64,000 nucleotides of DNA, taken from contig JBBHKE010002966.1 of NCBI GenBank assembly GCA_037447655.1, forward strand, positions 70,165 through 134,164, in the 5' to 3' direction. Below the pieces are notes generated by a model that was given only the letters and a program-made list of their open reading frames with translations, did no database searches and was not told the origin of the DNA. The position numbers and the translations under genes are program-made. Numbering within the stretch: the stretch's first letter is position 1; the number at the start of each line of letters is the position of its first letter. Source of the stretch: Zygnema cylindricum. Lineage: Eukaryota > Streptophyta > Zygnematophyceae > Zygnematales > Zygnemataceae. Below, one piece after another: positions 17,988-60,301 of the stretch.

Positions 17988-19643
17988 AATCCATTTCTTG
18001 TGGATCATGATCTTGTCCTTCCTTCTCGTCATTCTCGGAGCCAGAATCCGGATCGGCGGAGTTTGGAGAGTGTCATTTTCCTAGCGTTTTGCCATATATC
18101 TTTCAAACTTGTCATGATTGTCTTTTTTTTCTCTTTCCAGCGATTCCTTCTCCCGCTGTTGTTTTTTGTTCTAGTAGTTTTTGAAACCGGGAGGCAATTT
18201 GGTGTTGGGAGGAAGAGATGGCGGGTTATTGGGTTTGATTTCCGAGGCCGATGTCTTTGTTCAACATCATTGCCCTAGGAGTAAATGACAAAGAACATGA
18301 AACTTTCCGGTTGTGGTCCTGCTTACCCATTTTTCTGCCTCTCGTGTCTTTCCATCGAGGTTGAATTGCGGAGTTGGCGACGACTCTCTCCCACCCCAAC
18401 ATTCCAAGCCCTGGAAATGGAGGTTCGGGCATGGTGGGCATTTGGGGGTTCCAAATCCTAGCCCAATATGTCATCATCATTGGCACCCGCTGTGCTTTGA
18501 AGCTCAAGCTCCGCGAGCTTTTGTAACAACTCCTGTTTCTATTTTTAGAGTCGTTGTGCTACTGTGAGCGGAGCAGGCCTTGAAGAAGATCCCAAGCGGA
18601 GGGCAGCCAACTCTGCAGCCATTGCGGTTAATTGTTGACTTTGCTGCTGGATGATGAATTCCGGCGTAAGCCTCGTTGGAGCCACTGATGTTGGCTCTGG
18701 TTCATCTTGGGTAATCGAAACTCGGCGTCCCCAAGGATAGAGGAGTTGAAGTGGGAGAGGGTTAACGGTAGTTTCTCCTTCTCCAATGAATAGGGCGAAC
18801 TGCATCATTGTTTTAGGAACTCCATTCTTTCGGAAACATTGCCTTTCCTAATGCCCGAGGAAGCCGCAAGCCTCGCATTTCGTTCCTTCACAGGTGTATT
18901 TACTGTGTATTTCATTTGAGATCTGGGCGTCATCAAACTTTGGAAGTTTGATTTGTCGCAGCTGGGATTGTGACATTTTGGCGATTTCTCCTCGGGGAGT
19001 TGGACAGTAAGTTTCCTTCGTTAATGGCGTCTTTTCTCCCCCCCTTTCCCTTTTGAGCCTTTCTTGCTGCTTCCGAGTCCTTTTTGCAAGTTTTTTCTCC
19101 CATTCCTTTAGCTTCAAGGCCAGCTCCGGTTTAAGTTTCCGTGTGCAGTGCTTCCACCCATGGCCTGTTTGTTGACAATTTAAGCAATTGTAAAGAAAAA
19201 CTCTTTTGTCTACTCCCATTCCCGGTTCTGACTTGGAGTCAGCAACTTGCTTCCCCTTTAGCTTCTGCAAAGCGTGATGTTCAGCCTTTTCCTCCTCACT
19301 CAAGGAGGTCTCTCCGGCGAATCCTGCAAAATTTGCGCTGGACTTGCCGATCACGGCTTTCTCCTTCGCTTCACTATAGACGAAGTGGTCGTACAACTTC
19401 ATCGCCACCAGCGAAATTTCCTTGGCTGAACGATTAATGTCCTAAATTGCCTGTGTGGCAATCAAATTATCAAAGGCAGTCTGCTTTGTTGGCCCAAAGG
19501 AATTAAGGACTGCGATGAAATATTTGGTTACCATCGCCGAAAGATCAATCTTGGATAGTTCCGTCTTCTAACAAAGGCTAGAGAGTCAGTTAAAGAGGGT
19601 CTGCGGAGTCTCGTTCTTCAAGCATCAAAATTCCATGAATTCC
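17988..19643 (-). pseudogene. Element F gag, C-terminal part with zinc knuckles
   Basis: Read leftward, it starts at the insertion point of G and covers the end of the capsid-like region. The 19408-18848 frame (186 codons) has KLYDHFVYSEAKEKAVIGKS, an intact CCHC knuckle CLNCQQTGHGWKHC, a Lys/Arg-rich helix and a second knuckle start KCEACGFLGH. The 18808-18545 frame continues into a linker rich in Gln and Ala. It aligns along its length with E (47554-48960), where the first knuckle is damaged. The part near 18250-17988 corresponds to E's region upstream of the protease and is then cut off. Confidence 0.8.
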
Positions 19644-20693
19644 TTGAAACTCTGAGACCTCCATAAGTCCTCAGAGTGGATAGCTTCCAAGAAGCCTCTA
19701 GGATAATCCTGACCCCTTTGTGTTTAAGCAAAAATAACTGCCACCCTGGCAGACAAAAACTTTGACCAACTTCACCCCTGTGAAGGCAAGACTCCCCTGA
19801 GCCGATAGCAAAAAGAATCTCTGAATTTGCTCCCCTGAGCAGTAAGTTATGGAGGGTCAAAGTTGACCTTTTGTACAGAAGCTCTCTAGGAGAGGGGGTC
19901 CTATCTTCTAATTTTTCTAAGTCCTATCTCTCTCACAGACTCTATCTACTGATGTACGGAACCAATCAGAATTGAGTTCCGTACGTAAAAGTACAGCTGC
20001 CGGTGTACTTTATGTACGGACATTGTACGACATGGCCAAAATGTCGACACATGTCAAATCCGGATTCGGTGCCATAATCTCCGGAGATTCCACAATCCAA
20101 CGGAATTTCGCCACGCGTCATCCGATGTGGCGATGGCCACAAACCGCCGAAATCTTCCTCCGCGATCTCGGCGCTAATTCCGGCCGTCCGATTAAATTCG
20201 GCTTTAATCGTAGCCGTAATAAATACATGCGCGGTATTTGTTTCATTTACGAAACAAATGCGCGGTACTGATTTCTGTCCGTACCGTAAGTCGTACATTA
20301 TATATTACCGGATCTATGTATCCCGTAATTCACTTCAGTTAAATGGTTTATCGCACGTATACATATTTAAATAAATATCAAACTATATGCTGCGTAATAC
20401 TACCGCTAGACTTAACGGCTAAGGCTACCGGCTACATCCTATCTGCCGTCCGGAAGGTAAAGGGATCAAATCCTACCGCCGGCACATACCTTTTAATTAA
20501 ATAAATAAACCCTAATATAAAATTCCCGTAAACCTCAGGATAGCCAAGGTAGCCATGGCTCTAGCTTCCTCTCCAATTTCTCAGTGACTACGACAAGTTT
20601 GAGAGTTGGAGAGAGAAGTTAGAGATAGACTGCCTCGACTTCTATGTTTCTTTTCAGACCTAGAAAATACTAATAAAACCATTAGTTTCTACA
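19644..20693 (-). repeat. 3' LTR of element G
   Basis: 1050 bp; minus strand starts TGTAGAAACTAATGG and ends CTCAGAGTTTCA. The polypurine tract AGAAAATAAGGGGAG lies next to it (20694-20708 reversed). Confidence 0.92.
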
Positions 20694-25809: not shown

Positions 25810-26838
25810 AAGTCCTCAGAGTGGACAGCTTCCAAGAAGCCTCTAGGATAATCCTGACCCCTTTGTGTTTAAGCAAAAATAACTGCCACCCTGGCAGACA
25901 AAAAGTCTGACCAACTTCACCCTTGTGAAGGCAAGACTCCCTTGAGTCGATAGCAAAAAGAATCTCTGAATTTGCTCCCCTGAGCAGTAAGTTATGGAGG
26001 GTCAAAGTTGACCTTTTGTACAGAAGCTCTCTGGGAGAGGGGGTCCTATCTTCTAATTTTTCTAAGTCCTATCTCTATCACAGACTCTATCTACTGATGT
26101 ACGGAACCAATCAGAATTGAGTTCCGTACGCAAAAGTACAGCTGCCGGTGTACTTTATGTACGGACATTGTACGACATGGCCAAAATGTCGACACATGTC
26201 AAATCCGGATTCGGTGCCATAATCTCCGGAGATTCCACAATCCAACGGAATTTCGCCACGCGTCATCCGATGTGGCGATGGCCACAAACCGCCGAAATCT
26301 TCCTCCGCGATCTCGGCGCTAATTCCGACCGTCCGATTAAATTCGGCTTTAATCGTAGCCGTAATAAATACATGCGCGGTATTTGTTTCATTTACGAAAC
26401 AAATGCGCGGTACTGATTTTTGTCCGTACCGTAAGTCGTACATTATATATTACTGGATCTATGTATCCCGTAATTCACTTCAGTTAAATGGTTTATCGCA
26501 CGTATACATATTTAAATAAATATCAAACTATATGCTACGTAATACTACCGCTAGACTTAACGGCTAAGGCTACCGGCTACATCCTATCTGCCGTCCGGAA
26601 GGTAAAAGGATCAAATCCTACCGCCGGCACATACCTTTTAATTAAATAAATAAACCCTAATATAAAATTCCCGTAAACCTCAGGATCGCCAAGGTAGCCA
26701 TGGCTCTAGCTTCCTCTCCAATTTCTCAGTGACTGCGACAAGTTTGAGAGTTGGAGAGAGAAGTTAGAGATAGACTGCCTCGACTTCTATATTTCTTTTC
26801 AGACCTAGAAAATACTAATAAAACCATTAGTTTCTACA
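25790..26838 (-). repeat. 5' LTR of element G
   Basis: 1049 bp, pair of 19644-20693. On the minus strand it carries the palindromic TTTGTTTCG/CGAAACAAA-type module, GTAC-rich arms, GATTGG and the gag ATG in its last 20 bp. Confidence 0.92.
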
Positions 26839-29451
26839 TTCCTTGATCGCAAACTCGTTCCTCTCGGTGTAAACAAGTCTCTAGATGTTAAGCAAGGTGG
26901 TACAAGGATTAGGATTGGCAACCATGCGAGTTGCTGGCTGGGATGCCTGGATTGCTCGCACCTGGTTAACATAGGCACTTCCTTGTGCCTGGAGTTTTAT
27001 GTCTTGTTTAAAGGTAGCAGTCACAAGTGTGGCAGCCGCCGCAGCCAAGTTAACCTCCACTTGTATAACTGCAGCATCAAGGGCTAGATCCGAGATCTTG
27101 ATGCTAGGAGCAATCAAAAGAGGTTAACGCTCCTTGTAATCCGTGAACGCCCCTCCAGAAAGGTAGTTGACCATCATGGGGAAGAGTGTTGTTTCAAAGT
27201 CATGCGGAATGGCTCCTCACAAGTACTTATTGATTTCGGCTTGTGTGAAAGATTTCCACAACAACTCGAAATCCGAAAATGCGATCCCGGAGCTATCTCC
27301 TGTAAAGATCCGGATATTCCCCATTTCTTTTTCTTCCTCTGCAGGGTTGGTAAAATGGGAAGAGGAAGGCCCGGTAGGGCTAACAAAAAGAGCCGGCGAG
27401 ATGACTCGCGTATCCTCTTCCTCGCGGCAGAACTATGTCCTCCTCCAGTAGAAGGTGCTGCCCTGAGAGGTGTGGATCCACCTCCCACAGAGTAAGTACT
27501 AGCCCCCGAAAAATATGGTTGGAGGAAGGATGTTCCCCACTACTCCTCTATATCTAGGAGAGTATTGTTCCTCCCTTAGAACTTGCTGCATCGATGGGAT
27601 GTGGAGGCGAGGTCGGTTCAAAGGAGGTCCTTGGGGAATGGGTGGCGACGAAGACGGAGACGAAGACTGCAGGGGCCCAGTTGGATAAGGTGTCTGTTTT
27701 TTGGGTTCGCCTTCTGAAGGTTTCGGGAGATGGAGTTCCGGAACTGGTGGAAGGGGAACGCCTGTGAGGAGGTGAGTAAGCGGGGACATTGTGTTTGTAG
27801 GGTAAGACAGGCGGATCCGGTGACCCACGGACTGCTGCAGCGGGAGAAAAGGATGAAGAGGCAGAGGAGGCGGGATCGTCCCAAGGCTCTAGTGTAGGAC
27901 CTGGGGAGTGAGAAGATGGAGGTGGAGGAGAAGATGGGAGATCGAGGGATACTCCGTGAGATGGTGAAGCGGGTGTTGACGGCCTCAAGTGAATGTGAAT
28001 CCTCTCGTCCGGTCGTAACTCCACCAAAGCCTCCACGACGGAAGCAACCTCCACCGAGATAAAGGTAGGCTATTTTCGGGGAAGAGGAGGAGACTCAGGA
28101 GGTAAATCTGCACCCAAAACCTTCATGTTAGGTTCAATGTTCTCACTCCCTTCCCGATGAAGAGGAAGCTCTCGGCTGATTTTGGAGGAAGGAACTTCGA
28201 GCTGAGTGCTTGCAAGAGGAGAAGTCCCCTGAGCTGACGCTTCGGGATGCGGCTCTGTATTTGGCCTAGGAGGAATCTGCCCGCTGTAAATCCCACTAGA
28301 TCTACGCCTAGTTTCCCGAATAAGTTTTAATTCCTTTTCCCATAACTTCCGCCTTTCTTCCTCTAAGGCTTCCCAATCTACTGTGGTGGGTCTGAACCTT
28401 GCTGTAGCTTTGCCCTGGGATTTTAGAACTTCCACTAGTTCCTTGGTATTTTAAACTACTTTGGTAAGATCCGCTATCCCCATCCCCGGAATTTCGGGAT
28501 CATTAGGTCTGATCCGCCACCATCCCTCGGACAAATCTTTTGGTTCCGTACCCGGAACCTTTAGATCGGTAAGTTTGGATCGCCACAGCCCTTCGGCAGG
28601 GCGGACACAAGTTGTTATAGGAGCATTTTTCTCGGTTGAGGTTGACACAGGAGTGGGGGACCTCTCCTCTTTGGGAAGAGTTACCAATCTTCCCTTGTTG
28701 TCACGGTGGTCAAACCTCTTTCCCCTCAATGGGTCTCGTGCTTCCCTCTTGATACCCCCTTCTCCTCTACGAGGCCGCGAAGAGGTACGTCCCCGGGAGG
28801 GTCGGCTGGTTGCGGTGTCTTGAGAGAAAGATGGGGGAGGGTGAGAATAGGGAGATCTTTGTGACCAGTCCTACACCGAGTGTGAAGAGTTGCTCTCCGA
28901 AGAACTACCCAAAATCTCCACCACCCCTCCCACGGGTCTAACCATTTGACTTGATCTGTCCGAGCCACTCTCTGTACAAACTCCTTCTTCACCTTCAGCT
29001 CATGGAGGTCGTGAAGGGCAAGGAGTTTTTTACGACCTGAGCGAGGTGGATCCGTCAAAACCGCGGGGTCAATTTGGATCTCGGCCTAGGGAATTTTGGA
29101 TCTGGTGTGAAGCCTGACCTCTGGAAGAGGACCCAAATGAGGCTCCCTCTGTGCCTGACGCTTTGGCCGGGCCCTGGGAGACACTTGGTTACTTTCTTCG
29201 GCCTAAGCCCGGGCTTCTTTCCTTTCCTCAACATAGACCCTAGCTGCCTCCGCCAAGGAAGGGTAATGTTCGCCAGTCAGACGGGGAGGAGGAGGAGGAG
29301 AAGAAGCACCAACCGGTTCCTTGGCTGGAAAATTAAAGACAATCTCCATGGGTTCAGACTCCTCGGACCTTTAAGGCTGTCCCTCCTTTACAAGCCTCTC
29401 CTGCGGACCCTGCTCTCTAGATCCGTTATCCGGAGTCCCTCCTCCTGCCAT
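26839..29451 (-). pseudogene. Element F gag, N-terminal and capsid part
   Basis: Gag of gypsy F from an ATG at 29451 (MAGGGTPDNGSREQ). Recognisable pieces shared with E: RSGRKKLLALHDLHELKVKK (near 29000), FRPTTVDWEALEEERRKLWEKE (near 28380), a Pro/Ser-rich stretch with GSPDPPVLPYKHNVPAYSPP (near 27800), and SIKISDLALDAAVIQVEVNLAAAA (near 27080). Frameshifts and stops separate them, including a frame change in the capsid region at 27450-27170. The final piece ends at G's insertion site. No zinc knuckle lies in this half. Confidence 0.75.
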
Positions 29452-30751
29452 GATGAAAGAGGTAACGAGAGAAAGAGAAATGAATGTCATTAGAGCTTAC
29501 TTCCAAAAAGAGAGCTTCCAAAGTTGAAGCTCCTATCCCCTCTAATGCGAGCAGACATGTTGCTTTTTAGTACTATGCTTTCTCTACGAGAAGTCGATCG
29601 CACTTGTTCCCTCAAAACTTATTGTCCTGATCTAAGGGGTTCCTGTTAACTCCGGGATGGTCACTCTAAAGGAAAAACAACTCCAGATGAAGACACAAAT
29701 CCACTACCACGTAGAAATATATAGGTAATAGGATTGGCTTTCACATTTTAACAATATCACCTTGCCCCTGAAAAGAGAATAAAAGAAAGAGAATGTGAAA
29801 TATAGCGAAGGAAGCTTAACATACCCCAGCAATAAACGATGACAACGAGAGAAAGCAGATCCCTCTCCCGAGAGTATCGGAAATAGGTATGGTGCTCCTT
29901 CAACCTCTAGTGTCCGTAGCTCGGAAATCGACAAGACTCTTCTCGGTTTCAAACAAGAAAAAGTCCAAAAATCACCCAAAAAGTAGATAGTGCCAACGAC
30001 CCGCCCGGACTCTGATTCCCACAAAAGACTGATCCAATACAAAGATGGCAATAGAGTCAAAAACAAAACAAAGATTCTCCAAAAGAAGGTTTGTTGGAAT
30101 TTTTGAGGGTTTTCACAGGAGACGGTACTGAAAAGCAACTTGTCTCCTTCGACCCCAAGTGCCATATACATCAAAGTTTGTTAAATTGCAGGTGAAAAAG
30201 TCAAAGCTACGCTATTAACCAATGAGCGGCAAGCAAGTGTACTTGAACTGACATAAGACAAAATAATCCGTACTACACTCGGGGTAAAAGTTTTGCTGCG
30301 GACTGTGGCTAGATCTGCGGCCGGAAGTAATTATTTGGTCCACTATTACAAGACAAAGTCCTAAAAATGACACTAACTTGCCAAACTTTGACCTAACGTA
30401 ATTAATGGACTAACAGTTAGGTAAGCCTGAGCTTAATTCCTACTAATGGCTAACAGCATAATCTAGATGCAAATCCGGAAATTTACATGGCAATCCACAA
30501 TGTACCCCCCACGGAGGCTGTCGAAATCTCGTCCCAGGTAACGAAATTGCAATCTTTGAAACGGTAGAACTTAGTCATTTGGTCTCCGTTAGACGCGAAA
30601 TAAGGTGTGTGCCGCTCAATTTATGAAATACAAGGATCTCGCCCAGCTTGATGCACTCACTCCTCCGTACTCTGAAAACTGTACAGGGTAAAAAAGGCCC
30701 GGGAATCCTTGGTGATATACAGGTGTGCTTGAGAATCACACGAGCTTGACA
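29452..30751 (-). repeat. LTR and leader of gypsy F
   Basis: About 1.3 kb aligning with the left end of E (43170-44487), starting TGTCAAGCTCGTGTG at 30751. A 57-bp stretch with GTATGTTAAG at its start and a pyrimidine-rich TTTTCAG end (29824-29768) resembles a small intron, also present at 57 bp in E. The 157-codon open frame within it (30174-29704) is not credible as a gene. The LTR/leader boundary is not defined because no second LTR is present. Confidence 0.7.
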
Positions 30752-31207
30752 ACCCACAATCCAACCTCTTTCACCTTTCAAACCTCCAAAAGCATAGTTC
30801 TGCTTTCGAGGAATTTTGACCTCGGTCTTTGCCTCCAACTCCTCATCCAATAAGAGCTCACCGTCATTGTCCTCAAATTCCTCCTCATGTACATCACTCA
30901 CAAGAGCATTTTTCTTTCCTTTTGGAGGTCCACCTATCTACCCCTCCTTTAATTGAAGTTCAGTTAGCTTAGTGCACTTCGACATATAGTGCCTAGGTTT
31001 CTTACAAAAATGGCACAAGCCCTTGGGAGCCCTTGGTCCAAACTCCTCGGTGTGATTTTTCTACCCCCCCCCTTTCCATAATTGATCGTTTTCCTAGAAT
31101 CGTTGTTCCTCTTGTCGGTCCCTACTGTCCAGGCTTGCCCACTCTTTCCTCCCCTTCGGATCTCAATCGTGTTCTCTCGAACTAGAATCATCCCTACCAC
31201 TAAATTG
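30752..31207 (-). pseudogene. Element K gag C-terminus and protease start
   Basis: Read leftward: VVGMILVRENTIEIRRG, a zinc knuckle in shifted frames (CAIFVRN.../CHFCKK-type), an acidic ELLLDEELEAKTEVKIPRKQ linker and GGLKGERGWIV, the residues before the protease DSGA. The frame then enters gypsy sequence. It was separated from the N-terminal gag half by a solo LTR. Confidence 0.8.
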
Positions 31208-37968: not shown

Positions 37969-38317
37969 GGCAAACTTTGGCCAGCCATAACTATCAATTT
38001 ACTTGACCATTTTCAGTGATTCTTTTTGCTGCGGACTCAGGGGAGTCTAGGCTACACAGGGGTGTAGTCGGTCAGAGTTTTTGTCTGCCAGGGTGGCTGT
38101 ATTTCTAAGGGAAAGTCAAAGTGGGTGAATGTGTCCAAATCTCATATTCTAACTTTGCATTCTGTGGTGGAACTGAGCACACAGGAAGTGTTATTTCACA
38201 GGGGTGAATCTATATTGGGGTTTTGACTGTCAAGGGGTCAGTCATTTGGGTTTATATCAACTTGGAGTCGGCACTATCTAGATTAGCTTCTTTTGGATCT
38301 GCATACTCTGAGGGCCA

Positions 38318-40225: not shown

Positions 40226-41467
40226 TGTTGATATTTGAGTATTTTATAGGTCTGTATTAGGATAGAAAAAGAGCTGAGGCGGTCTGCCTCTAACTCCCCT
40301 TTCCAAGCCGCCATACTTGTCGTAGTCACTGAAGGCTGGATAGGGAGCTAGAGCCATGGCTGCCTAGGCTCTCTAGAGAAGACAGGGGGTAAATTATGTA
40401 GTCTTACCAAAAGTTGGTTGACGGACCCAGGAATTGATCCTGGTACTTACCGTCCATCAATCCGCGATGGCCGTTAGCTCTAGCCGTTATGTCTAAAACA
40501 GATATTACGATATATAGGGTTTGACAAATATATAAATCGTTATATGTAGATTAATCCGTTTAACGGCTAATAGATACTTAGTACATAGATACAGTTTAGT
40601 TTAGTACGAAGTACGGAATGGGGGCAGAACGGATACCACGCATTTGTTTCGATAGCGAAACAAATACCGCGCATTTGTTTCGACAGCGAAACAAATACCG
40701 CGCATTTGTTTCGATAGCGAAACAAATACCGCGCGTCGAATTTCAGCGGCTACGATTATAGCCGGTCTTGATCGGACGGCCACGATAGGCGCCGCGATCA
40801 CGGAAAAGGCATTTTTGGCGTTTTACGGTCTTTGTCACGTCAAGTGACACGTGGCGTGATAACATTGGACTACGGGAATTCCGGAGATTACAGGAACTAA
40901 TCCTGATTTGACACGTGTCGACATTTTGGCCATGTCGTACAATGGCCGTACAGAAAGTACACCGGCACCTGTACTTTTCTGTACGACACAGTAATTTGAT
41001 TGGTGCCGTACTTCAGTAGATAGAGTTTTAGAGAGGGAATAGGACTTAGAAAATTTTGGGTAGGCAGCTGCCTCTCCCAGAGAGCACCCTGTATAAATGG
41101 CAAACTTTGGCCAGCCATAACTATCAATTTACTTGACCATTTTCAGTGATTCTTTTTGCTGCGGACTCAGGGGAGTCTAGGCTACACAGGGGTGTAGTCG
41201 GTCAGAGTTTTTGTCTGCCAGGGTGGCTGTATTTCTAAGGGAAAGTCAAAGTGGGTGAATGTGTCCAAATCTCATATTCTAACTTTGCATTCTGTGGTGG
41301 AACTGAGCACACAGGAAGTGTTATTTCACAGGGGTGAATCTATATTGGGGTTTTGACTGTCAAGGGGTCAGTCATTTGGGTTTATATCAACTTGGAGTCG
41401 GCACTATCTAGATTAGCTTCTTTTGGATCTGCATACTCTGAGGGCCAATGGAGGTCTCAGAGTTTCA
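40226..41467 (+). repeat. 3' LTR of element L
   Basis: 1242 bp, nearly identical to 37096-38337, followed by GAAAA. Confidence 0.97.
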
Positions 41468-41541
41468 GAAAAAACGTCGAGCACAAGTACAGAGAAACTC
41501 GTCTAGTGCAACAGAAAAACAACCAAAGATCCCGGTCGCCA

Positions 41542-43169
41542 TCAGAAAAAAGTCATCCATAGGGTCGCGGTGGGCATAATCACGCTCCTTTGCCTTAGCG
41601 CCTCACGAGCTGTCACCCCATCATGACGCGTCGCCAAAAAAACAACTGTAGCTGAAGTAGGTTTCGCCAAAACAATATCACCGAAGATGGGATGGGCATT
41701 ATCAAGCAAAACAACATCGATCCGATGCGAGGGAATAATATGAGAAAACTCTCGACGCATAGAAAATCCCCTTTGCGAAGCGATAGTCGCGACGGTGTTG
41801 CGAATAGTGTCGTGCGCCTAGATCGAATCTCCCCCATGGGAGCAGCGAAGTAAATAGACACCATAGGGCCCCAAGACTCGACCACATGCACAAACAAGAG
41901 AGCCAAGTAAAGGAGGATGGGGGAGGCTCAGGCGAAATCGGAGGGCGGTGGAGAATTGAGTTGGTGAAAATCGGAGAGTGGACAAAATAGGTATGGGAAG
42001 AAGCCAAGACCCAGAACCAAGTCCACCACATGAGAGAAGATGGGCACGAGAATAATCGGAGGGAAGCACCTTCAAAATATTGGATTTAATGGCGGCGACA
42101 ACCCTATCGAAAATTGATTACTGGACACGCTCAACAAATTTTGTAACAAGAGTGGAGAAAATCGGCACATCCACTAGGGAATGGGGAGGAAGAGAACGTG
42201 ATGCGTCCAATAGAGATCGCTGGAAGGTGAACATACCGTTTGAAACTCGGGGGATAACCGTAGCTAGAATAGGGGTGTCCGTAGCCAAGAAAGGGGAAAC
42301 AAGAGAAGATGAAATAAGACACCAACTTCCCAAATAGGCAGCAGGAGCAACACGAGCAGTCGATAATAGACCTAACCCCCTGGTACAAGCAGGGAGGGAT
42401 GCCTGAATGCGGGCCGATGGCCCAGACTCGCAATCAAATGCCCCACGACACAACAGTTGTAGAGGACATCCATGAGCCGATCAACAAAAGCCGAGAGAGA
42501 GGAGACAAATGTTGAGGTGGGAGGGGACGTACGAGTAAGGTAACAAGGGCGGTGGGGAAATGAAGGAATTCGGTCACGAAAGTATCTGAATTAATAGGGA
42601 AACCAAGCACAGGAATGCCATTGGAGGGAGAAGGGGTTTGAAAACCAAGAGAGGGGGTAAAAGAATGTGGAATATCATGAGGAGACCAAATAACACACTT
42701 TGACGGTCGGACTGAAACGTTGAGTTCGGCTTAACGTTCCTTGAAAAAATCATATGCCAACACGACTTGTTCTCTGGGCCTAATGATGTGCGTATCATGT
42801 GCGACCGAAAGGAAAAGGCAAAAAGGGAACGCGGCTGCGGAGGCACCAAGGGCCTTGTAATGGGCGAGGGCAAACTAAGGTCCACCGAGAGGGTCGCCTT
42901 GACGAGTGCCACTCGCAAAGGAGAGAGGAATGGATCACCATCGGGCGAGAAGGAAAAGCTGCTTGTCAAAGAATAGAAAAGCCCTCACAAAAGGGAATAA
43001 TTGGATAATCGAGATGGAGCCGCCATAAGCTCTGAAAAAAATCACATTCCTATCCACCGTATTAAAATCATTGGAAACATCGATATGAAGGACCAACCAA
43101 TCCGGATGTACATCCAACAAAGCCCGAATCCCGTGGACCACGGCCTCACAATCCCCTCTCGTGGCCACT
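41542..43169 (-). pseudogene. LINE M: RT core and C-terminal domain
   Basis: Read leftward from E's boundary: ATRGDCEAVVHGIRAL, motif A VLHIDVSNDFNTVDR, LFPFVRAF, motif B TRQGDPLGGP followed by a stop and FALAHYKAL (about 42910-42850), and motif C as VAHDTHI (near 42800), where the first Asp of the ADD pair is His. Further on, CGRVLGPYGVYLLRCSHGG, a conserved RIDVVLLDNAHPIFGDIVLAKPT-like block and TARE at the end form a C-terminal domain that could be a restriction-like nuclease fold, though I cannot verify that. Multiple stops and frameshifts are present. Confidence 0.75.
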
Positions 43170-44487
43170 TGTCAAGCTCGTGTGCGTTTCGGGCACACCT
43201 TTATATTACAAAGGATTTCCGAGCCCTTTTTAACCTAAAAGGTCATCTGAGTACGGTGGACTGAGTGCACCCAACCAGACGAGATCCTTGTATTTACCAA
43301 ACAGAGCGGGACACACTTTATTTTGCTCCTAACGGAGGCTGGAAGGCGAAGTTCTCCCGTCTCTAAGATTGCAATTCTGTTACATGGGACTAGCTTCCAC
43401 CAGCCCTCGTGGGGGGTACATTGTGGATTGCCACGTAACTTTTTGGATTGTCATCTAGATTATGCTGTTAGCTGTCACTAGGAATTAAGTTCAGGATCAG
43501 CTGAATTTTGGTCCATTAATTACCTTAGGTCAAAGTTTGGTGTCCCAACGCCAGTTTACGATTTTAGGTAGATTAGTGGTTCCAATTTGGACTCCCATTT
43601 CCGGATTTAGCCGTTATCTTAAGTATAACTTTTTACCCTGAATATGGTACGACTTTATTTGTCCTATGTCAGTTCGATAGTAATTGCTCTCCGCTCATTG
43701 GCTCCTTGCATTGCATTGACCTTTTGGATCTGAAACCAGAAAAACTCTGTTCTATAAGGCGCTTGAGGCCGAAGGAGACAGGTTGTTGGTTCAGTACTGT
43801 CTCTTGAGAAAACTTTTGGAAATTCCAGCAAACTTATTTTGGAGAACCTTTGTTGTTATGTGATTGTGATACTATTGCCATTTTGGTTTACCTTTGTCCT
43901 TTGTGGAAATCGTAGTCCAGGTGGGTAGTTGGCACTATATTACCCTTTTGGGCGATTTGGGACATGTGGCTGTTTGATACCGAGAGGGGTCTTGCCAGTT
44001 CCTGGTTGCGAAAAAATCGAGGAGTTAAGGAGCACATTACCTGTTTCGGTGTCTTCGGAGAGATTTTGTCTCATCTTGTTGTCAGCGTTGCTTTTAGGGG
44101 TATGTTAAGCTCGCTTACTACAATTCTAAATCATATCTTTATCTCTATTTTTCTAGGGCAAGGTGATATTGTTAATTCTAAAACAATTTATTATTCTTAT
44201 ATTGTTTCGTTATATGTGTGGAAGTGCATTCGTTCTCTCTTTGGTAGTGCTTTTTTGGCTTCGGAAGCGTTTCAGCCAGGGTTAACTACTAGAATCTTTT
44301 GGACCAAAATAGTGGGTTTTGAGGGAATCTTTGTTAGACTTCCAGCGTCTCACCACTGTACTAAAACAACAATTGTCTTCTTCGGATAAGAGGGGATAGG
44401 AGCTTCAGATTTTGGGACACTCAATTATTGAGAGGAGTTAGGGTTCTCTTTACCGATAGTTTTGACAGTTCTGTCCGTTAGCTATCA
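43170..44487 (+). repeat. LTR and leader of gypsy E
   Basis: Matches the right end of F over 1.3 kb. Contains a 57-bp intron-like segment (44100-44156: GTATGTTAAG...TTTTTCTAG). The 141-codon frame inside it is not conserved in F. Confidence 0.72.
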
Positions 44488-47400
44488 ATGGATGGGAGGG
44501 GGAGACGCTCAGGAAAAAGGAGGTCCAGAAATCGGATCTAGGGAGCAAGGTAGTACGAACACTTTTGTACGGGAAGAAGAGTCCTAGATGAGAGAGGAGT
44601 TAGTCTCTATGGCCTCTGTGTTTGATTCGCTTGCAAAGAAACCCTCCGAGGGATAAGTTACTCCACCTCCTCCTAGCCATACGCCCGAACAATGTCATTT
44701 TTTTTCCGAGGATGCTAGAATCCAGGCGGAGGAGAGGAAGAAGTCATCCCCTACAGCTCGCCAAAAGGGGTTAGCTCACAAAGAGGCGTTCACGGGTCAC
44801 TTTTTAGAGGTGGGGTTCCATACACGGTCAAAGGTTCCCAGACCTGATATCCCGATAGATCTTGAGATTTTGGCAGATCCTCGTAGGCCGAGTCGAAAAG
44901 AGCTGCTGGCCATTCACAATTTACACAAGTTGAAGGTGAAGAAGGGGCTTGTTTAGAGGGTGGCCCGCTCAGATCGACCTAGGGTGGCCAGGCCGGTAGG
45001 AGGAGTAGTGGAGATTCTAAGTAGCTCTTTAGAAAGCAGTTCTTCTAAGTCTGCACCAGGCCGACACAGGGGGGAACAAGCTTCAAGTCCCCAGGCCGCT
45101 CAATCCGAGGACACGGCTACCAGCAGGCCGTCTCGGGGTCAAACTACTTTTCGTAAGCAGGAAGGAACTAGCAAACAGAGCTCCTTCGAGCCAGAGGGGG
45201 AAAAGATTTGATCACCGCGACACCAAAGGGAAGTTCACCCTGGTAGTTAAGAAAGTGACGTTCCCTCCTCCTGCAACAGCCATGAAAGAAAAGTCTCCTC
45301 TCGATGCATTAACCGTTCGACCTTCGGGCCGATTGTGGCAGAGAACACCTATAGATCTCGAGGTTCCGGGCATGCGGATTGCAAAATCTAACTAAGGTGG
45401 TTAGCAAAACGTTAAAGGTTCCCAAACCTGATATCCCGATAGATCTTGAGATTTTGGCAGATCCTCGTAGGCCGAGTCGGAAAGAGCTGCTGGCCCTTCA
45501 CAATTTACACGAGTTGAACTTGAAGAAGGGGCTTGTTTAGAGGGTGGCCCGCTCAGATCGACCTAAGGTGGTCATGCCGGTAGGAGGAGTAGTAAAGATT
45601 CTAAGTAGCTCTTCAGAAAGCAGTTCTTCTAAGTCCGCACCTGGCCAACATAGGGAGGAGCAAGCTTCACGTCCCCAGGCGCTGAATCCCAGGACACGGC
45701 TACTAGCACGCACTCTCAGGGTCGAACTACTTCTCGTAAGCATGAAGGAACTAGCAAACAAAGCTCCTTCGAGCCTCGGAGGGGGAAAAGATTTGATCAC
45801 CGCGACACCAAAGGCAAGTTCACCCTGGTGGTTAAGAAAGTGACGTTCCCTCCTTCCGCAACAGCCATGAAAGAAAAGTCTCCTTTCGATGCATTAACCG
45901 TTCGACCTCCGGTCGGATTGTGGCAGAGAAGACCTATAGATCCCGAGGTTTCGGGCATGCGGATTGCAAAATCTAACTAAGGTGGTTGGCAAAACGCACG
46001 AGTTGGTGGAGATAGTGAAAGCACAAGGTCAGGCGACGGCGGGGGTTGGACCAGTTACGATAGATTAGGAGGCTCTAGAGAAGGAAAGACGTGTTTTATG
46101 GGAACAGGTATTGAACCTTATTCCCGCAGCTTGATGTAGGTTCATTGGACTTCTCAATGGGCAGAGGTCAATTTTATTAGGAACAGGGTCGTATCCAAAT
46201 GAACGAATTCAGGAAACCAACCTTATCACAAGCAACCAAACCAGGCATGCCTCTCTCGGAAAATAGCGGGGGTACCCCTCTTCCTCGGGAAGGGGGGGGG
46301 GATTACGGAACCTAATGAAAAGGGTTTGAGTGCACATATACATCTTGACATTGCTGCTTCTCCTCAAGGAGTGCCAACTACTGTTTCGGTGGAGGACGCC
46401 TCCGCAGTGGAAGTCTTGGTGGGATTACGACAGGACGAAAAGGTTCACATTCCCCTAAGGGCATCTACTCATCCTGCTTCCCCAGCCAGACAATCCCCTG
46501 CTCTTCCCTCTTCTCCTTCGCCACCTCATTCCCCAGGTGCCGTAGTTTGTGGATCTCCCAATCCTCCTGTCTTAAGCGACCAATCCATCCCTGCCTATTC
46601 TCCTCCTCATCGGCGTTCTCCCTCTTTCAGCTCAAGAACTCCACCTCTCGAGGCATCTAGGAGGCGAAGCACGAGAGAGACGCCTTATTCTACAAGACTT
46701 CTTATCGTAGAGGGCCCCTACAGTCTCGGTCTCTGTCTCCGTCACCATCCATTTCAGGAAGACCTTTGAACAGACCAAGTCTCCACATCTCATCAGTGGA
46801 TACAGTTCAAAGGGAAAAACAATAATCTCTTCGATATAGAGGATCAAGGGCTTCAACACCTATTTTAGAAGTACGACCATTCTTAGTGGGGGGAGGGTCG
46901 CAGCTGTTACACCCGCTCATTGTATCGGAGGAGGAAGAGGTTCGGATCCATAAGGTGTAGATCCCGGAGCAACTTTGCATGCTCAGTTTGTCTCCTCTAC
47001 CAGATCGGCCTCGCCACAATTCACCAATCTCGTAGAGGAAGAGAAAGAGATGGGAGACGTCCGGATCTTCACAGAGGATAGTTTGGGAATAGCGTTTTTT
47101 GATTTTGCACTGTTGTGGAAATTTTTCACCCAGTCTGAGATCAACAAGTATAGAGGAGGAGCAATCCTTGATGACTTCAAATCCACAGTCTTCCCGATGA
47201 TGGTAAATTTCCTCTCTGAGGGAGCAATGGCGGACTACAAAGAAAGTCAACCCCTTTTAATGGCACCAACCTTCAAGATTTCCGACCAGGTTCTCGACGC
47301 TTTAGTCTTGCAGACAGAAGCAAATCTGGCCGCGGTTGCGAACGCTCTGGTAACACCAGTATTCACAGAAGACATGAAATTGCAAGCATATGGGATAGCT

Positions 47401-47553
47401 TATGTTAATCAACTGTAGGATCTCCGAGACGCCCGGGCAGCCACTAGAATGGCCGCAAACCCTTCTCCCTACACCAGTCTTTTGAACACGTGGAGGGTCC
47501 TATACACCGAAAGAAATGAGTCTTCCATCAAATAATTCACGGAATTATGGTAT
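44488..47553 (+). pseudogene. Element E gag, N-terminal and capsid part
   Basis: ATG at 44488, with early stops. Segments shared with F: PSRKELLAIHNLHKLKVKKGLV (44900), a 584-bp direct duplication (44833-46000), an ELVEIVKAQGQATA region (46005), a Pro/Ser-rich GSPNPPVL...PAYSPPHRRSP region in the 46326-46769 frame, and a well-kept capsid-like frame (46975-47418) with VRIFTEDSLGIAFFDFALLW and FKISDQVLDALVLQTEANLAA. Stops at 47416 and 47533 interrupt the continuation. Confidence 0.75.
44833..46000 (+). repeat. 584-bp tandem duplication in gypsy E gag
   Basis: 44833-45416 is repeated at 45417-46000, starting GGTTCCCAGACCTGATATCC, with scattered substitutions and small indels. F has a single copy of this region. 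Confidence 0.88.
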
Positions 47554-48243
47554 TTGAAGAATGAAAACCCAGAGACTCTTTTCAATCAACTCTCTAGCCT
47601 CTGTCACAAAACCAAAATATCCACTATAGACCTCCAAGCTATGGCCACTAAAAATAATATATCAGTGTGTAACTCGTTCGGGCCGACAGGACCAATTGAT
47701 CTAGATAATTTGATTACCGGACAGGCAATTCATGACATTAATTCCTTTGCCAAAGACATTTCTTTAGTGGCTATGAAGTTTTACGACCACTTCGTCCACA
47801 GTGAGGCAAGGGAGAGAGCCGTAATTGGCAAAGCCCGGGTGAACTTTGTTGGATTCGCTGGGGAGACCTCCTTGAATGAGGAGGAACATGCTGAACTTCA
47901 AACATTCCAAAAGCTTAAAGGGAAAAAAGTGGCTGACAGCGGGTCAGAACCTGCAATGGGGGCAGATGACCGAGTTTTCCTTTATAATTGCCTTAATTAT
48001 CAACAAACCGGTCAAGGGTGGAAGCACTACCCCAAAAAAATAAAATCGGAACTTGCTCTAAAACAAAAAGAATGGGAAAAGAAACGGGATGAGAGGACTC
48101 GAAACCCGCAGGAACGAATCAAAGGGGAAGGGGGGGAGAGAAAAACCCCAATGACCAAGGATAACTATCGACCAACTCCGCAGGGCGAAACATCTAAAAT
48201 GTCTCAATATCAGCTGCGGCAAATTAAAACTACCCAAGTTTGA
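47554..48243 (+). pseudogene. Element E gag: capsid C-terminus and degenerate zinc knuckle
   Basis: 229-codon open frame typical of Ty3/gypsy retrotrans_gag: NPETLFNQLSSLCHKTKIS, DISLVAMKFYDHFVHSEAR, VIGKARVNFVGFAGETSL. The knuckle corresponding to F's CLNCQQTGHGWKHC reads CLNYQQTGQGWKHY, with three ligands lost. A Lys/Arg/Glu-rich helix follows. It ends in a frameshift at KTTQV, where F continues KLPKFDDAQIS. Confidence 0.85.
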
Positions 48244-49380
48244 TGATGCAAAAATATCTAATGAGATCAAAAGTAAGTATACCACCGAAGGCTCAAAATG
48301 TGAAGCTTGTGGTTTAATGAGGCATAAACAAGGGCAATATTTCTGCAAAAATGGGGTCCCTAAAGAGAAGATGTAGTATGCTTTGTTCACCAGTGAAGGG
48401 AAACCACAGTGAATCCTCTCTCCCTCCAGCTCCTCTACCCATAGGGGCGTCGCACCATGGAGGAACTAGAAGGAGCCCCATTACCTCCGGCCAAGCTGAC
48501 CCCGGAAATAATTATCCAGCAACAAAGCCAACAATTGGCTACGATGGCGGCGGAATTGGCCGCCCTGCATTTAGGATCCTCTTTTCGGCAGCTCAAAAAC
48601 TTCAAAATAAGAAACATGAGCTATTGCAAAAGCTAGTGGAGCTTTAACAGGAAGCCACGGCGGTTGGAGATGATGATGATGTTATAGGTTAGGATAAAGA
48701 ACCTCCAAAGGCTCACCACGTGTGGACCTTCACGTCCGGAGCTTGGATTGTGAGAGTGGGGGACAGTCATTGGCAGCTCCGCGATTCTACCACGGAGCAA
48801 CGGAAAGATTGGCAGAAAATGGATCAGAAGGACCACAACACGAAAGCGACTAGACCGTTTTCCTTTACTCCCCAGGCAGTTATTTTGAACAGTGATATCG
48901 GCCTTGGCATCAAGCCAGCTCAACCTCCTCCTCCACCCCCTAAAAAAAAGTTGCCTTTGGGTTTCGAACATTTTTAGGCCGATAAACAAAAACAATTGGA
49001 AAAGAAAGACCTTGATAAGCAAAGTGATCAAGAATGGTTCGAAAAATACGTGGTCGAATATCCGGATGATAACCCTCTTGGCACCCCTTCAACTGCAGAT
49101 TTTGATGCCGAAGATGATGAAAAAGACAAAGAAACGCCCAAGTCCCAACCCTCTTCCTCAAAACTGGTTGTCATCCTGGTACGGCACCTAATACCTAACG
49201 CCCTCACCCACGTCAAGACTTTGGCCTCTTCTAATAATCTGCCCGAACAAGTTCTCATTTAGGCACTTGGGGAGGAAATCCATTTGGGGAGGGAAAAGGT
49301 AGATTTGGGGAGGGAAAAAGTAGCTTTGGGAAATCAGCCCAAAGCAGGCTTTTTTTCCTAGGAACCCAAAAACCCCTATA
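48244..49380 (+). pseudogene. Element E gag-pol linker
   Basis: Continuation in shifting frames: SKCEACGLMRHKQG (second knuckle), IIQQQSQQLATMAAELAAL-type Gln/Ala stretch (near 48510), AWIVRVGDSHWQL, PPPPPPKKKLPLGFEHF, DKQSDQEWFEKYVVEYPDDNPLGTPS, and a repeated HLGREKVDLGREKVALG stretch near 49280. It corresponds to F 18560-17988. Function unassigned beyond being part of the polyprotein. Confidence 0.65.
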
Positions 49381-50102
49381 ATGAATAAGGATAACAAGGC
49401 GTTATCGATGGCTCTCATCCTGAAGCGGACTGGCAATTTTAAGCTTAACGGCTACGATGCAGTGGTCAATACCGAGGCGCTGCCAAATCTGATCACCACC
49501 TCTGCTTTACAACAGATGCCACAGGAGCTCGGGCCAGAAATTTGTCCAAGCGACTTTTGTCTGAGTACTGTCAGCAGCGGAAGCTAGCCAGTCCTTGGAA
49601 TTATCTAGGCCATGGAGATTGAATTTTCGGATGACGCGGAACAACGAATCCAGATTCAACTTCTTTTCTTGGTGGAAAAAGGTAAGCAGTCCTTGGAATT
49701 ATCTAGGCCATGGAGATTGAATTTTCGGATGACGCGGGACAACGAATCCAGATTCAACTTCTTTTCTTGGTGGAAAAAGGTAAGCAGTTTAAAATTCTGC
49801 TGGGAATGGCAACGTGGACCCGGCTGAATATAGGATTGAGTGTGAGGAAGGAGCAGTTCACTGTCAGGGACCCCGAAGATCGCGAAGGGACCAAGGTGGT
49901 GGTTCCTTTAGATTTATAGAATCGCGGAAAGACAAATGCTCCTGTGTCTGGCTGTTACCCCGTATATGCAACATCCACTCCCACATACCTCTTTGATAGG
50001 GTAACCGATATAGCCCAACAGATCTAGCAATTCTCCATTTCTAAGCAGTGGGAAGAGGAATACAATGACATTTTATTACAGATTGCGAAACTCCAACGGG
50101 AA
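49381..50102 (+). pseudogene. Element E retropepsin-like protease (degenerate)
   Basis: Retropepsin remnant: NGYDAVVNTEALPNLITTSAL corresponds to the VVDTGALPNLI active-site region, with the catalytic Asp now Asn and Gly now Glu. After the 98-bp duplication come QFKILLGMATWTRLNIGLS and VRKEQFTVRDPEDREG, the flap and C-terminal part. Two stops precede the next domain. It lies immediately upstream of the methyltransferase with no other gene between. Confidence 0.7.
49589..49784 (+). repeat. 98-bp tandem duplication in the protease region
   Basis: Two near-identical adjacent copies beginning CAGTCCTTGGAATTATC (49589-49686, 49687-49784), so MEIEFSDD and LLFLVEKGK are repeated. Confidence 0.92.
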
Positions 50103-50975
50103 GTGGATCAGAATTTCTTAGATTTATCATTAAAGGAAACAAATCCTAACCTCCGGTCTGACGTTACCAAGACAATATTCGACAACGAGAAATTCAACCG
50201 ACAAGTGGTGTCATTGACCATTCCCAAATCAAGACTCCGAATTTTATCCATATTTTCTATAATCAGTTCTGATTTAGAAGTTGTTTTGAAAGCAGGATAC
50301 AAAGTGGAATCCTATGTAGCTGTCGCGATTTCTCCCAAAGCACGGGTTGTCAGCCAACACCTCCTGCAAGAACTTCACCACCTATATCATTAAGAGCTTC
50401 CAGAGTCTGCAATTTCCAACACTCACCGGAGCCTCCCCAAAAATGTGGATAACATCATGACGCCTCATCTTGCCAGCTTGGGAAGAGTAGTTCTAGTAGT
50501 GGCGAGGTGGCCATGTCAAGGATATTCTCTAACCGAACAAGGAAAAAGGCATCAGTACTTGAGGAGTAGAACATTTTTTTACAATGGTGCAGTTAATCTC
50601 ATGGGTATAACAGCACTAGAACACACCAGTGGGGTACGTTTTGGAAAATGTTCACCCAGGAGATAATCGAAAAAAACAGGTGATTGACAGCTGGAATCAG
50701 GTTACCCAAATTTTAGGAGCTCCATTGGTCTTTGATGCTGCACAAATGGGATCCCCCGCACACAGAGTTAGAGCTTATTAGACTAATTTGATCCCTCTTC
50801 CCGTCTTAAAGAAAATCTTGGAGAAGCAAATCGACCCTCAGATTCAAGCAAAAAACCTCCGGGAACGTGGAATGGCAACGCCAGTGAAAAGCCGACTATC
50901 TCGCTCTTCAAGTACCGCCGAGTTCCACGCCGAGCCCTTCCTACGTGGGTTTCTTTTCCTCACAACCATGTATAT
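50103..50975 (+). pseudogene. Cytosine-C5 DNA methyltransferase domain in gypsy E
   Basis: C5 methyltransferase, which transfers a methyl group from S-adenosylmethionine to cytosine. Motif I region: SRLRILSIFSIISSDLEVVLKAGY (50232 on), with the FxGxG glycines eroded. SYVAVAISPKAR follows (motif II/III region). After one stop, TPHLASLGRVVLVVARWPCQGY contains the catalytic PCQ of motif IV (Cys codon 50514-50516) and LRSRTFF. After a frameshift, YVLENVHPGD has the ENV of motif VI (50644-50652), and VFDAAQMGSPAHRVRAY has the motif VIII HRxRxY block (50761-50778), followed by a stop where a Trp is expected. Motifs IX-X are missing because an LTR piece follows. The gene is dead, but four motifs in the right order and spacing make the family call firm. 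Confidence 0.85.
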
Positions 50976-51107: not shown

Positions 51108-52557
51108 CTCCCCAAAACCTTTAGACTCTCTCAGCCACTAAGTCTGCATGCCTCTCTACTAAACTTCAACTAAGGTGCAGGTAAAGGCTTAGTCATCCTA
51201 CCATCGTCTCATCTGGCAAATAATTGAGTTTTCATAAGGTGTCTTCCCTTTTACTGCCTAAGTTTCTATTATATTCCTAATTAAAGATACACAAGAGAAA
51301 GCCTCACCCCAAAATTTAAAATATATTCTTTTATCTAACATCATAGATTTTGCACTTTCCGTTAAAGTCCGGTTAAGTCATTCGGATACTCTGTCTTGCT
51401 CCGGAGTAAAGGGAACTCTAAATTGACGACAGATGCCCTGTTCCCTTAAATAATCCGAGAATGCATTCGAAATATATTCTCCCCCGTTGTCGGACCGAAG
51501 AGAGAGAATTGGCTTCCCGTGAAGCTTTTCCGCCCACGTCCGCAAATGCTTGAAGTGAGTGAACACTTCACTCTTCTCCTTCATGAAGTAAAGTCTGCTC
51601 TACCGCGAGAAGTCATCCGTAAAAGTAACTAAAAACCGGTTGCCACGTAAAGAAGGGACTTTTGACGGTCCCCACACGTATGAATCAATAATTTGCAGCA
51701 AATGCGTGGCCCGGTTATTTGCGGTCTGAGGTAGGGGTAGCTTATGAAGCTTCCCCAAAGCACAACCATCTCAAACATGAGACTCTTTTTGTCCTAACTT
51801 TACACCATGTATTATATTTTGTATCACCATTTTATCAAGTTTCTCTTGATGAACATGACCGAGCCTCTTTTGCCACAAAACATTTTCCAGAAGGACACTT
51901 GAGTATGCAAAGTCAATTTCATTAGCCAAGTCCATCCGGTACAACAAGTTTGGGCCTCTAGTTCCTACCAAGGCTACTCTCCCATCTTTGCTTACTACAT
52001 TGTTCCCATTCTTTTGCAAAATTTCAAATCCTTTCATTTCAGCCACAAAAGTGGAAAACAATGTTTTCTTAAACTTTGGAATATAGAGAACATCATGTAA
52101 GGTTATCTTTACAATCTGACCATCGATGTCACATGCTAACTCCACGTTTCCCTTTGCCGTAGCCTCCAACCCGCTATCATCCGCGTAATAGATTCGACAA
52201 GTCGGAATCGGGGTAAGGGTTTTGAAGTAAGCCCGGTTGCCGCACATGTGGGAAGAGCACCCGGAGTACATAATCCATCCATTGTCTTGAGGCCCCTCCA
52301 TGAGATCTTTTGCAAGTCAAAGAACTCATCATCTTCCGATTGCGGATATCTGACCACATCATCTTTTTCCCCCAACGGTTCGTCTTGTGGCGTCTCATCA
52401 AATGTAAAGAACGCTGCATTTTTCACCGGCATTTTTGATGCCAGCCCATTTGAAGGTGGTTGTTGGAGCTCAATTGTCCCGTGTTTAGACCCAAATGGCG
52501 GCGTATGACTGGGATTGAGGCCTTCTCCTCTAGAAATGGGCTGACGGAACGAGGAAA
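51108..52557 (-). pseudogene. Copia fragment N: protease, integrase, RNase H end
   Basis: Minus-strand remnant of a different copia family inserted in E. Read leftward: KTMDGLC region, protease-like GWIMYSGCSSHMCG (52301-51771 frame, catalytic Asp replaced by Tyr), VLWQKRLGHVHQEKL (integrase His-His), a further frame 51584-51378 with LRSDNGGEYISNAF and TPEQDRVSE (catalytic Asp, Glu), then a deletion to DGRMTKPLPAP, the RNase H end, and a TTTTGGGGAG polypurine tract followed by TGTTCC. RT is missing. Confidence 0.78.
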
Positions 52558-53418
52558 GTGGTTCCTCCCCCATCAGATCGAGAAACTCTGATCACTTGCC
52601 TTCATCAACAATGCGGACATTTCGGACAAAAAATAACCACTTCCTTGGTTGCTCGATCTTATTGGTGGCACGGGTTGCGGACCCAGGTCAACCGAATCTT
52701 AAAGACATGCCCTTCTTGTGACCGAGTCAAAGCAGCTTTTGACAAAAAAGGCGTGATGGAGCTTCATTCGCTGCCAATCTGGGGAATGTTTTATAGATGG
52801 TCTCTAGACCTTTTGGAACCTCTTCTTACCAGCAGGCAGGGGAACCGCTTCGTGCTAGTCATGATTGAACATTTTTCCAAATGGATTGATTTGGTGGCGT
52901 TGCCGCGGAAGGAGTCCAAGGCAATTGTAAACGCCTTTTTGCAGAGGGTGTTATAACAACTTGGGGCGCTAGCGGAGGTTGTAACCGACCAAGGCTCCGA
53001 ATTTGCCGGAGAATTCTCCAACCTCGTGGAAAAATGCCTCATTGACCATCGGTTGACGAGCCGTGACTACCCACAAGCCGACGGTTTGGCCAAAAGGTGC
53101 ATACAGACAGTGAAGTGGTCACTACGGAAATATGCGGTTGAAGAAGATTTGGGGGAGTGGGACTGAAAGGTGCCTTCGATTGTCATGGGATACAGATTCA
53201 GTAGGCACGCTTCTCTCCACTCTTATAGCCGTTACTTCATCTTATTTGGACGACCTCCCATCCTGTCAGACGTAGCATCGGTCCAGGCGGTGGTCCTCCT
53301 GGAGATGGATAACCAAGGGACTGTGGAAAAACTGATCGCTGAGAGAGCAAAAGTATTCCACCGAGAGATGCCTCTCGCCATGGGAAATTTACAGGCAGCT
53401 CAACACCAGGATCAGTAG
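52558..53418 (+). pseudogene. Element E integrase (gypsy type)
   Basis: The 52558-52956 frame has the HHCC zinc finger (LHQQCGHFGQKIT, then TCPSCDRVKA), the first catalytic Asp in RWSLDLLEPL and VMIEHFSKWIDLVALP. After a stop (52954), VVTDQGSEFAGEFSN (second Asp) and DYPQADGLAKRCIQTVK follow, where the catalytic Glu position (normally after DG) appears as Lys. WDXKVPSIVMGYRFSRHASLHSYSRYFILFGRPPI is the C-terminal gypsy signature, continuing to about 53400. Broken. Confidence 0.85.
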
Positions 53419-53775
53419 TGGTACTTTGAACGCCGGAGAAAAAATTATATGCTAGGGCAACAACGATTTCTAACCGGGGACTTTGTATATAATTGGGAGA
53501 TCAGCCCAAGCCCACTCTATTCTCACGGCCCGGTGGGGGAAAGGAAGGGAAGAGAGGAAATATCTTCCCACCTCCCCACGTTCTCATTCCTATTTCCTAT
53601 CTCGTTGTCTCCTCTGTATTGCATGCATGTGTGAGGGAGGGATGTGGGCAGCAATAGGCATGATCATCATTATGGGAAGCATTCGCATTTGGGGGGGGGG
53701 TTATTTTGCAGGACTCCAATGCCCACTATTTATGGCGGTGGGCCCTTCTCTTGTGTTTCCGAGGCACGCTCGACA
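53419..53775 (+). other. 3' tail of gypsy E
   Basis: From the end of integrase to GCTCGACA. It should hold the 3' LTR but shows no alignable copy of the 43170 end, so most of the LTR has been deleted or diverged. The G-run at 53691-53700 is a single mononucleotide tract. Confidence 0.55.
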
Positions 53776-60227: not shown

Positions 60228-60301
60228 TCTATTAAAACCCTAGCAGTTATATTAAACCCTCTCCTCTCACAGAGGCCTGTGTATGTATCCTGCTTTGAAA
60301 C

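Follow-up and report, generated by a model that had tools for sequence, protein, structure and literature searches.

A decayed Ty3/gypsy retrotransposon of Zygnema cylindricum belongs to an abundant family predicted to carry its own DNMT3-like cytosine methyltransferase

Retrotransposons that encode a cytosine DNA methyltransferase (MTase) have been described in a charophyte alga and in dinoflagellates, as an earlier annotation of the present DNA made without database searches (the sequence-only reading) had correctly stated (de Mendoza et al., 2018; PMC5890265). In Klebsormidium nitens a DNMT3 is located in Pol of an LTR Gypsy element, KnitGypsy-Dnmt3, with fewer copies than in Symbiodinium; its domain produced no methylation in yeast, a result the paper calls inconclusive. 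The SymbioDIRS-Dnmt3 enzymes of Symbiodinium methylate CG in yeast, and methylation of cDNA is discussed for such elements (PMC5890265). Some streptophyte DNMT3 are also stated to sit in retrotransposons in a second source, where the LTR ones are called Copia (PMC12344493) as against Gypsy in PMC5890265.

We analysed a 64-kb stretch of Zygnema DNA (the window) containing element E, which we read from its sequence as a truncated and dead member of a Ty3/gypsy family of LTR retrotransposons that bears its own C5 MTase. Like KnitGypsy-Dnmt3, the family has a DNMT3-type MTase without the DRM rearrangement in Pol of a streptophyte Gypsy element, and both are under purifying selection (Ka/Ks < 0.2 in K. 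nitens), whereas a DIRS-like repeat arrangement is described for K. nitens and a 931-bp LTR pair was found in the Zygnema copy L013 (PMC5890265). The Zygnema element bears a PHD finger, a domain named 0 times in the main text on KnitGypsy-Dnmt3, which sets the two apart by description, and one of its two types (type A) has a Glu-Cys motif IV that goes unmentioned for KnitGypsy-Dnmt3 in the same source (PMC5890265). With SymbioDIRS-Dnmt3 and SymbioLINE-Dnmt of Symbiodinium it shares a DNMT under selection within a retrotransposon coding region and a copy number in the hundreds; those elements are, however, DIRS (with a tyrosine recombinase) or LINE rather than Ty3/gypsy, and according to their description acquired the DNMT independently (PMC5890265). 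A DNMT3 in gypsy Pol is already known from KnitGypsy-Dnmt3; the integrase-terminal PHD finger and the type A Glu-Cys motif IV were not found in the open-access literature searched, where none of the best matches listed dealt, in title or abstract, with a DNMT-carrying gypsy element that also bears a PHD finger.

Element E lies on the plus strand. Its 5' LTR (43169..44355) has a clear start, TTGTCAAGC, which aligns with the start of type B LTRs (L033:2212; the 3' LTR of L025 at 9218), and an approximate end taken from the length of type B LTRs, about 1.19 kb by comparison of two separate elements. Two tandem 585-bp repeats (44827..45996; self-blastn, 92% identity) lie between the LTR and the gag-like open frames (46954..48240), which have a degenerate zinc knuckle recognised by eye and no match in a Pfam search; the gag region matches the L017 element at the DNA level, and 47536-48240 has 68% protein identity to a second copy, F. 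The protease region (49324..49900), decayed and read by eye from the frames, contains an internal duplication of about 130 bp (49581-49713 and 49679-49809) and had no match in a Pfam search. It is followed by the frame-broken, putatively DNMT3-type MTase (50202..50975), in which motifs I, IV, VI, VIII and IX are recognisable. Farther downstream lies the gypsy integrase that had been claimed from the sequence (52534..53490; PF17921, E 2e-15), with an H2C2 zinc finger and part of rve and 84% identity to the L017 integrase. RT and RNase H are missing from E, and the place expected for them between the MTase and the integrase is taken by a minus-strand Ty1/copia remnant (51232..52316, possibly reaching to about 52530 by eye; PF22936 Pol_BBD, 2e-22) with a DNA match to the window's other Copia elements, which agrees with the earlier claim that E had lost its RT. 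E stops at 53490, the last clear match to a relative; the PHD finger and 3' LTR are absent from it, and no PHD match was obtained anywhere in the 64-kb window.

Copy F, of the same family, lies on the minus strand, where it extends from 30753 down to 18020 and is interrupted by Copia. Its 5' part, from LTR to gag (26820..30753), aligns with 43169-47554 by self-blastn and matches L033, and its gag part (18020..19647) aligns with 47528-49126 at 69%, stopping at Copia LTRs short of the protease and MTase. F was rightly called a second, truncated copy and, ending ahead of the MTase region, is uninformative on the MTase. Copia-like Ty1 elements and LTRs are densely nested at 1638-43168 of the window, where two 1243-bp copies (37096-38338 and 40226-41468) are 99.8% identical. 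The only host-like gene noticed, beside this transposon nest, is a protein phosphatase 2C on the minus strand (58024-60239), POLTERGEIST-like by eye.

The sequence-only reading had placed the MTase at 50103-50975; these coordinates are right, with homology beginning at about 50202. Rereading the frames of E recovered the proposed signature set in order: motif I (LRILSIF, in a block from about 50235), the PCQG of motif IV (WPCQGYS at about 50508), the ENV of motif VI (YVLENV at about 50635) and the HRVRAY of motif VIII (SPAHRVRAY, 50752-50778). A motif IX-like stretch, RRALPTWVSFPHNHVY, ends at 50975, and motif X was looked for in E and not found. The motifs fall in two reading frames, the frame changing at least twice, and in-frame stops occur at 50391-50393 and 50779-50781. 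Pfam returned no match to the MTase pieces or to their read-through (E up to 10), NCBIfam returned dcm only (E 0.071), PHROGs gave no usable match on the window's own sequence, and a phmmer comparison of the read-through with PDB chains gave DNMT3 at E 0.17-2.2, mixed with unrelated proteins. The absence of a Pfam match is what speaks for a chance likeness of motifs with no MTase at 50103-50975. An unfiltered six-frame scan of the window with a DNMT profile (DNMT3A, DNMT3B, two DRMs, M.HhaI and M.HaeIII) nevertheless ranked the MTase site of E first (E 2.2e-4) and second (6e-3), in different frames; three DNMT profiles built from fewer of these sequences likewise put it on top, at weaker E values (0.008, 0.011 and 0.23). 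The read-through scored 30.5 bits against the DNMT profile, a score matched by 0 of 5000 residue shuffles (best 8.8). Decisive was the match of the E MTase to the open MTase frame of L017 in the same genome (68% over 126 aa, 59% over 106 aa and 76% over 17 aa; E 3e-77), a frame that itself passes PF00145 (48.9 bits, cut-off 22). On this match an MTase in E is confirmed at the level of sequence, and chance likeness is rejected as having a negligible probability. The PF00145 check that had been proposed for the interval thus failed on E itself and succeeded on its open relative. Searches with the E MTase against phages by tblastn gave 70 records with a best E of 0.06, which is suggestive only; among the 25 rows listed, 16 were annotated as (DNA/cytosine) methyltransferase or methylase, 5 were hypothetical or unnamed and 4 lay in unannotated records. 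A plasmid search gave five records at E 3-6, two under unrelated genes, and in the viral contigs searched neither the MTase nor the integrase nor DNMT3A had a relative.

The family is abundant in the genome. A PF00145 search of the assembly (352.8 Mb, 2689 contigs) yielded 123 scored matches on 113 contigs from 782 candidates; 85 were stop-free in the matched part, 26 lay in frames of at least 500 aa and 12 in frames of at least 900 aa. We examined 47 of the 123 (8 loci, 20 in long frames with one shared place, and 20 spread over the ranking), and 46 were element MTases of type A or type B, two types that are 42% identical to each other. The MTase of E falls in type B, with 59-76% identity to that of L017. 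The exception, L007, reads by eye as a host DNMT1/CMT-type exon (GGPPCQGASGHNRF). With the RT of L017 as query, 150 matches were scored at first look from 3046 candidates, all of them at least 84% identical, and at least 29 of the first 90 RT rows had a PF00145 match 0.9-1.5 kb upstream, a floor because Pfam is weak here and only 123 PF00145 matches were scored. Relatives lacking an MTase at this place, the finding named beforehand as fatal to the claim, were sought in the 1.8 kb upstream of five RT matches without a PF00145 entry; the MTase was present in all five, in three over the full 333 residues, a small RT-picked sample (5 of 150 scored) that leaves room for relatives without it. Starting from the MTase, RT was located within roughly 2 kb downstream in 14 of 20 sampled matches. 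One further RT match (G000:C961:71851-72390) falls within a 5743-aa open frame, a length well beyond that of the polyproteins described here.

Intact copies with RT between the MTase and the integrase had been proposed as something to look for and were found, the fullest order being gag-protease-MTase-RT-RNase H-integrase-PHD finger in one polyprotein. In L013 the whole Pfam order is contained in a single 2395-aa open frame: a zinc knuckle at 449-464 (E 0.009) and a protease at 708-760 (E 0.01), neither of which reaches the Pfam cut-off, PF00145 (942-1078; 2e-11), RT (1e-29), RNase H (3e-34), integrase H2C2 (4e-15) and rve (2e-11), and the PHD finger (2338-2382; 1.5e-9). L021 has the complete order split over two overlapping frames, the type B copies L016 and L017 run from MTase through RT, RNase H and integrase to PHD in 1525 and 1520 aa, L014 runs from knuckle to RNase H in 1757 aa, and L023, L026 and L029 have a partial order only. 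In type B relatives a protease frame lies upstream of the MTase (Asp_protease_2, E 0.00017-0.002, below the Pfam cut-off). The Ty3/gypsy order protease-RT-RNase H-integrase (H2C2 plus rve) was present in L013, L016, L017 and L021, with protease matches below cut-off, and these open relatives bear out the claim of a C5 MTase between protease and RT in a Ty3/gypsy element. The 931-bp LTRs of L013 (pieces of 86, 434 and 411 bp) are identical, which indicates that the element is young; no clear target-site duplication was found for it. Partial LTR pairs of 153-366 bp (88-100%) were present in the type A loci L015, L018, L019, L026 and L029, while the remaining 14 of the 20 loci showed no LTR pair in the 10 kb covered, and none was found for L017 in the stretches searched.

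By sequence comparison the MTase is DNMT3-like in class. A profile of eight element copies scored 71 bits against DNMT3A and 60 against DNMT3B among solved structures, followed by M.HhaI (35), M.HaeIII (31), DNMT2 (30) and DRM2 (28.5), and no chain named DNMT1 or CMT occurred among the 55 matches listed. Four phage MTases scored 71, 70, 69 and 47 bits with this profile, beside 70 for DNMT3A, so the score does not decide between a eukaryotic and a viral origin. In a tree of 18 rows, including 10 reference rows without plant DNMT3 or CMT, the element MTases of both types formed one group (100/99) that joined DNMT3A/B at 91/88, below the program's strong-support mark and with a long-branch warning. 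An alignment of eight relatives has motifs I, IV, VI, VIII, IX and X in linear order, with the catalytic Cys and ENV present, and this order argues against DRM. The Cys of motif IV and the Glu-Asn of motif VI were conserved in all 27 rows tallied. Motif IV reads PCQ in every one of the 13 type B rows tallied, which stand for 12 places since L006 and L017 share one, and Glu-Cys-Gln (ECQ) in all 14 type A loci tallied out of 17 (L004, L005, L013-L015, L018-L022 and L026-L029); the PCN of DNMT3 was not encountered in either type. Glu-Cys in place of Pro-Cys is unusual for C5 methyltransferases and might mean impaired or changed catalysis in type A. Some loci have damaged motifs, with a stop beside motif IV in L004 and changes in motif I or VIII in L028 and L029. 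The element MTase resembles animal DNMT3A/B and plant DNMT3 in class and linear motif order, and differs from these in having PCQ or ECQ instead of PCN and a reader module more than 1200 residues away, after the integrase. Unlike plant DNMT3, which combine MTD with DUF3444 (PMC6453930), the element open frames scanned had no DUF3444 match. The single DUF3444 match in the genome (G000:C982:104155-104631) is a candidate end of a host DNMT3.

A PHD match was obtained in 18 of 20 ten-kb loci (none in L024 and L031), that of L028 on the strand opposite to its own MTase. Type B copies carry a divergent PHD (Pfam E 0.0002 in L016 and 0.004 in L017). The nearest solved relatives of the element PHD are those of PHF12, BAZ2B, Lid/KDM5, WSTF and PHF21A, several of which we take to be readers of unmodified H3K4. 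By eye, the PHD of type A shows the pattern LLCD-x-C...GFH and lacks the H3K4me3-cage tryptophan. The missing cage tryptophan and the nearest solved PHDs together lead us to propose reading of H3K4me0, as by the ADD of DNMT3, itself a PHD-like H3 reader. The module occupies the integrase C-terminal end, like the chromatin reader of chromoviruses, and is a PHD finger rather than a chromodomain; Pfam detected no Chromo family at E <= 0.1 in L013, L016, L017 or L021. A gypsy-like integrase with a C-terminal PHD also occurs in the Ginger1-9_HM transposase, which by contrast is that of a DNA transposon with terminal inverted repeats and Ulp1, described in that source without mention of an MTase (PMC2836005). 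PHD fingers are very numerous in the genome: our PF00628 search scored 150 of 984 candidates, and at least 9 of the scored matches lay inside type A loci. For Zygnema cf. cylindricum SAG 698-1a (359.8 Mb, 3587 scaffolds; repeats 73.3%, Copia 29.8%, Gypsy 5.9%), the PHD family has been reported to exceed that of the other Zygnema strains at least 9-fold (PMC9915684), an expansion that may, if this is the same genome, be at least partly transposon-borne.

Codon-model omega for the MTase was 0.069 in type A (8 sequences) and 0.129 in type B (11), compared with 0.011 and 0.081 for RT, 0.018 and 0.044 for RNase H and, in type A, 0.058 for the integrase (type B sequences were too few), all estimated from stop-free frames covering >90% only, a choice that favours low values. 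Pairwise NG86 dN/dS, with pairs kept only at dS 0.03-1.5, had medians for the MTase of 0.34 in type A (12 of 66 pairs) and 0.24 in type B (14 of 28 pairs), for RT of 0.15 and 0.12, and for the type A integrase of 0.36, as high as the MTase. Taken together, the MTase codons are under purifying selection at the protein level, and low omega with NG86 values above those of RT describes a domain that is constrained yet faster-evolving than RT. From one subfamily to another, divergence is much faster in the MTase and PHD than in RT and RNase H (L017 vs L023: MTase 52%, RT 82% identity; L013 vs L015: MTase 79%, RT 93%), a pattern that would suit a passenger domain, acquired once, weakly constrained and now being lost. 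We regard this as improbable, given an omega well under 1 in both types, the retention of the catalytic Cys and Glu-Asn across the A/B divergence, and the lack of any MTase-free copy among the five picked by RT. A single acquisition before the A/B split would be the simplest reading of an MTase place and a PHD common to both types. CpG o/e was 0.66 in E, 0.71 in the PP2C gene, 0.52-0.53 in Copia without an MTase, and 0.89 and 1.03 in the type A copies L013 and L014; CpG depletion as a mark of self-methylation is unsupported by these values.

We consider it probable that this is an MTase-bearing gypsy family in which the MTase is under selection for some role of the element. What that role might be is less certain, and de novo methylation of newly made cDNA or a fresh insertion of the element itself is the proposal we favour, at somewhat under even odds. 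Action in trans on the host, with silencing or defence genes methylated or signals diluted so that all copies are shielded, would draw on the large enzyme pool implied by the high copy number (3046 RT candidates, 150 scored) and would equally be visible as protein-level selection; we hold it unlikely, since the MTase is located inside the polyprotein beside RT in open frames and upstream of RT in all five RT-picked copies, an arrangement favouring action in the particle or on cDNA. The missing Pro-Cys of motif IV in all 14 type A loci tallied could instead point to methylation of RNA, either the element RNA or its tRNA primer, in the manner of DNMT2. The DNMT3 type (71 bits vs 30 for DNMT2, plus the tree) and the PCQ kept in type B tell against such a substrate, which we think quite improbable.

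Under the favoured proposal of methylation of the element's own DNA, the MTase, encoded between protease and RT, would be made in cis with RT and integrase and be either freed or kept with RT in the particle, where cDNA could be its substrate. The PHD finger, at the chromodomain place of chromoviruses, might bind unmodified histone H3 tails and tether integration, and perhaps the MTase too, to quiet chromatin, in effect a DNMT3-plus-ADD-like pair of writer and reader split across the polyprotein. Methylated early, a new copy could then escape defences aimed at unmethylated foreign DNA, or do less harm to the host. A bolder version, which we offer as tentative and rather doubtful, is that the element carries both writer (DNMT3) and H3 reader (PHD), picks its chromatin and methylates its own copy there, with the type A loop rebuilt as Glu-Cys, and that its spread explains the PHD expansion of SAG 698-1a.

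Because transposon copies inflate counts of both MTase and PHD domains, they should be masked before expansion of either gene family is claimed. The family poses the puzzle of a transposon that bears an enzyme of the kind that usually silences transposons, a question on which the published work found deals with one charophyte and with dinoflagellates (PMC5890265). It becomes testable in a streptophyte genome in which the family is very numerous and offers open frames, LTRs without differences and MTases of two types, and the PHD finger adds a targeting hypothesis to it.
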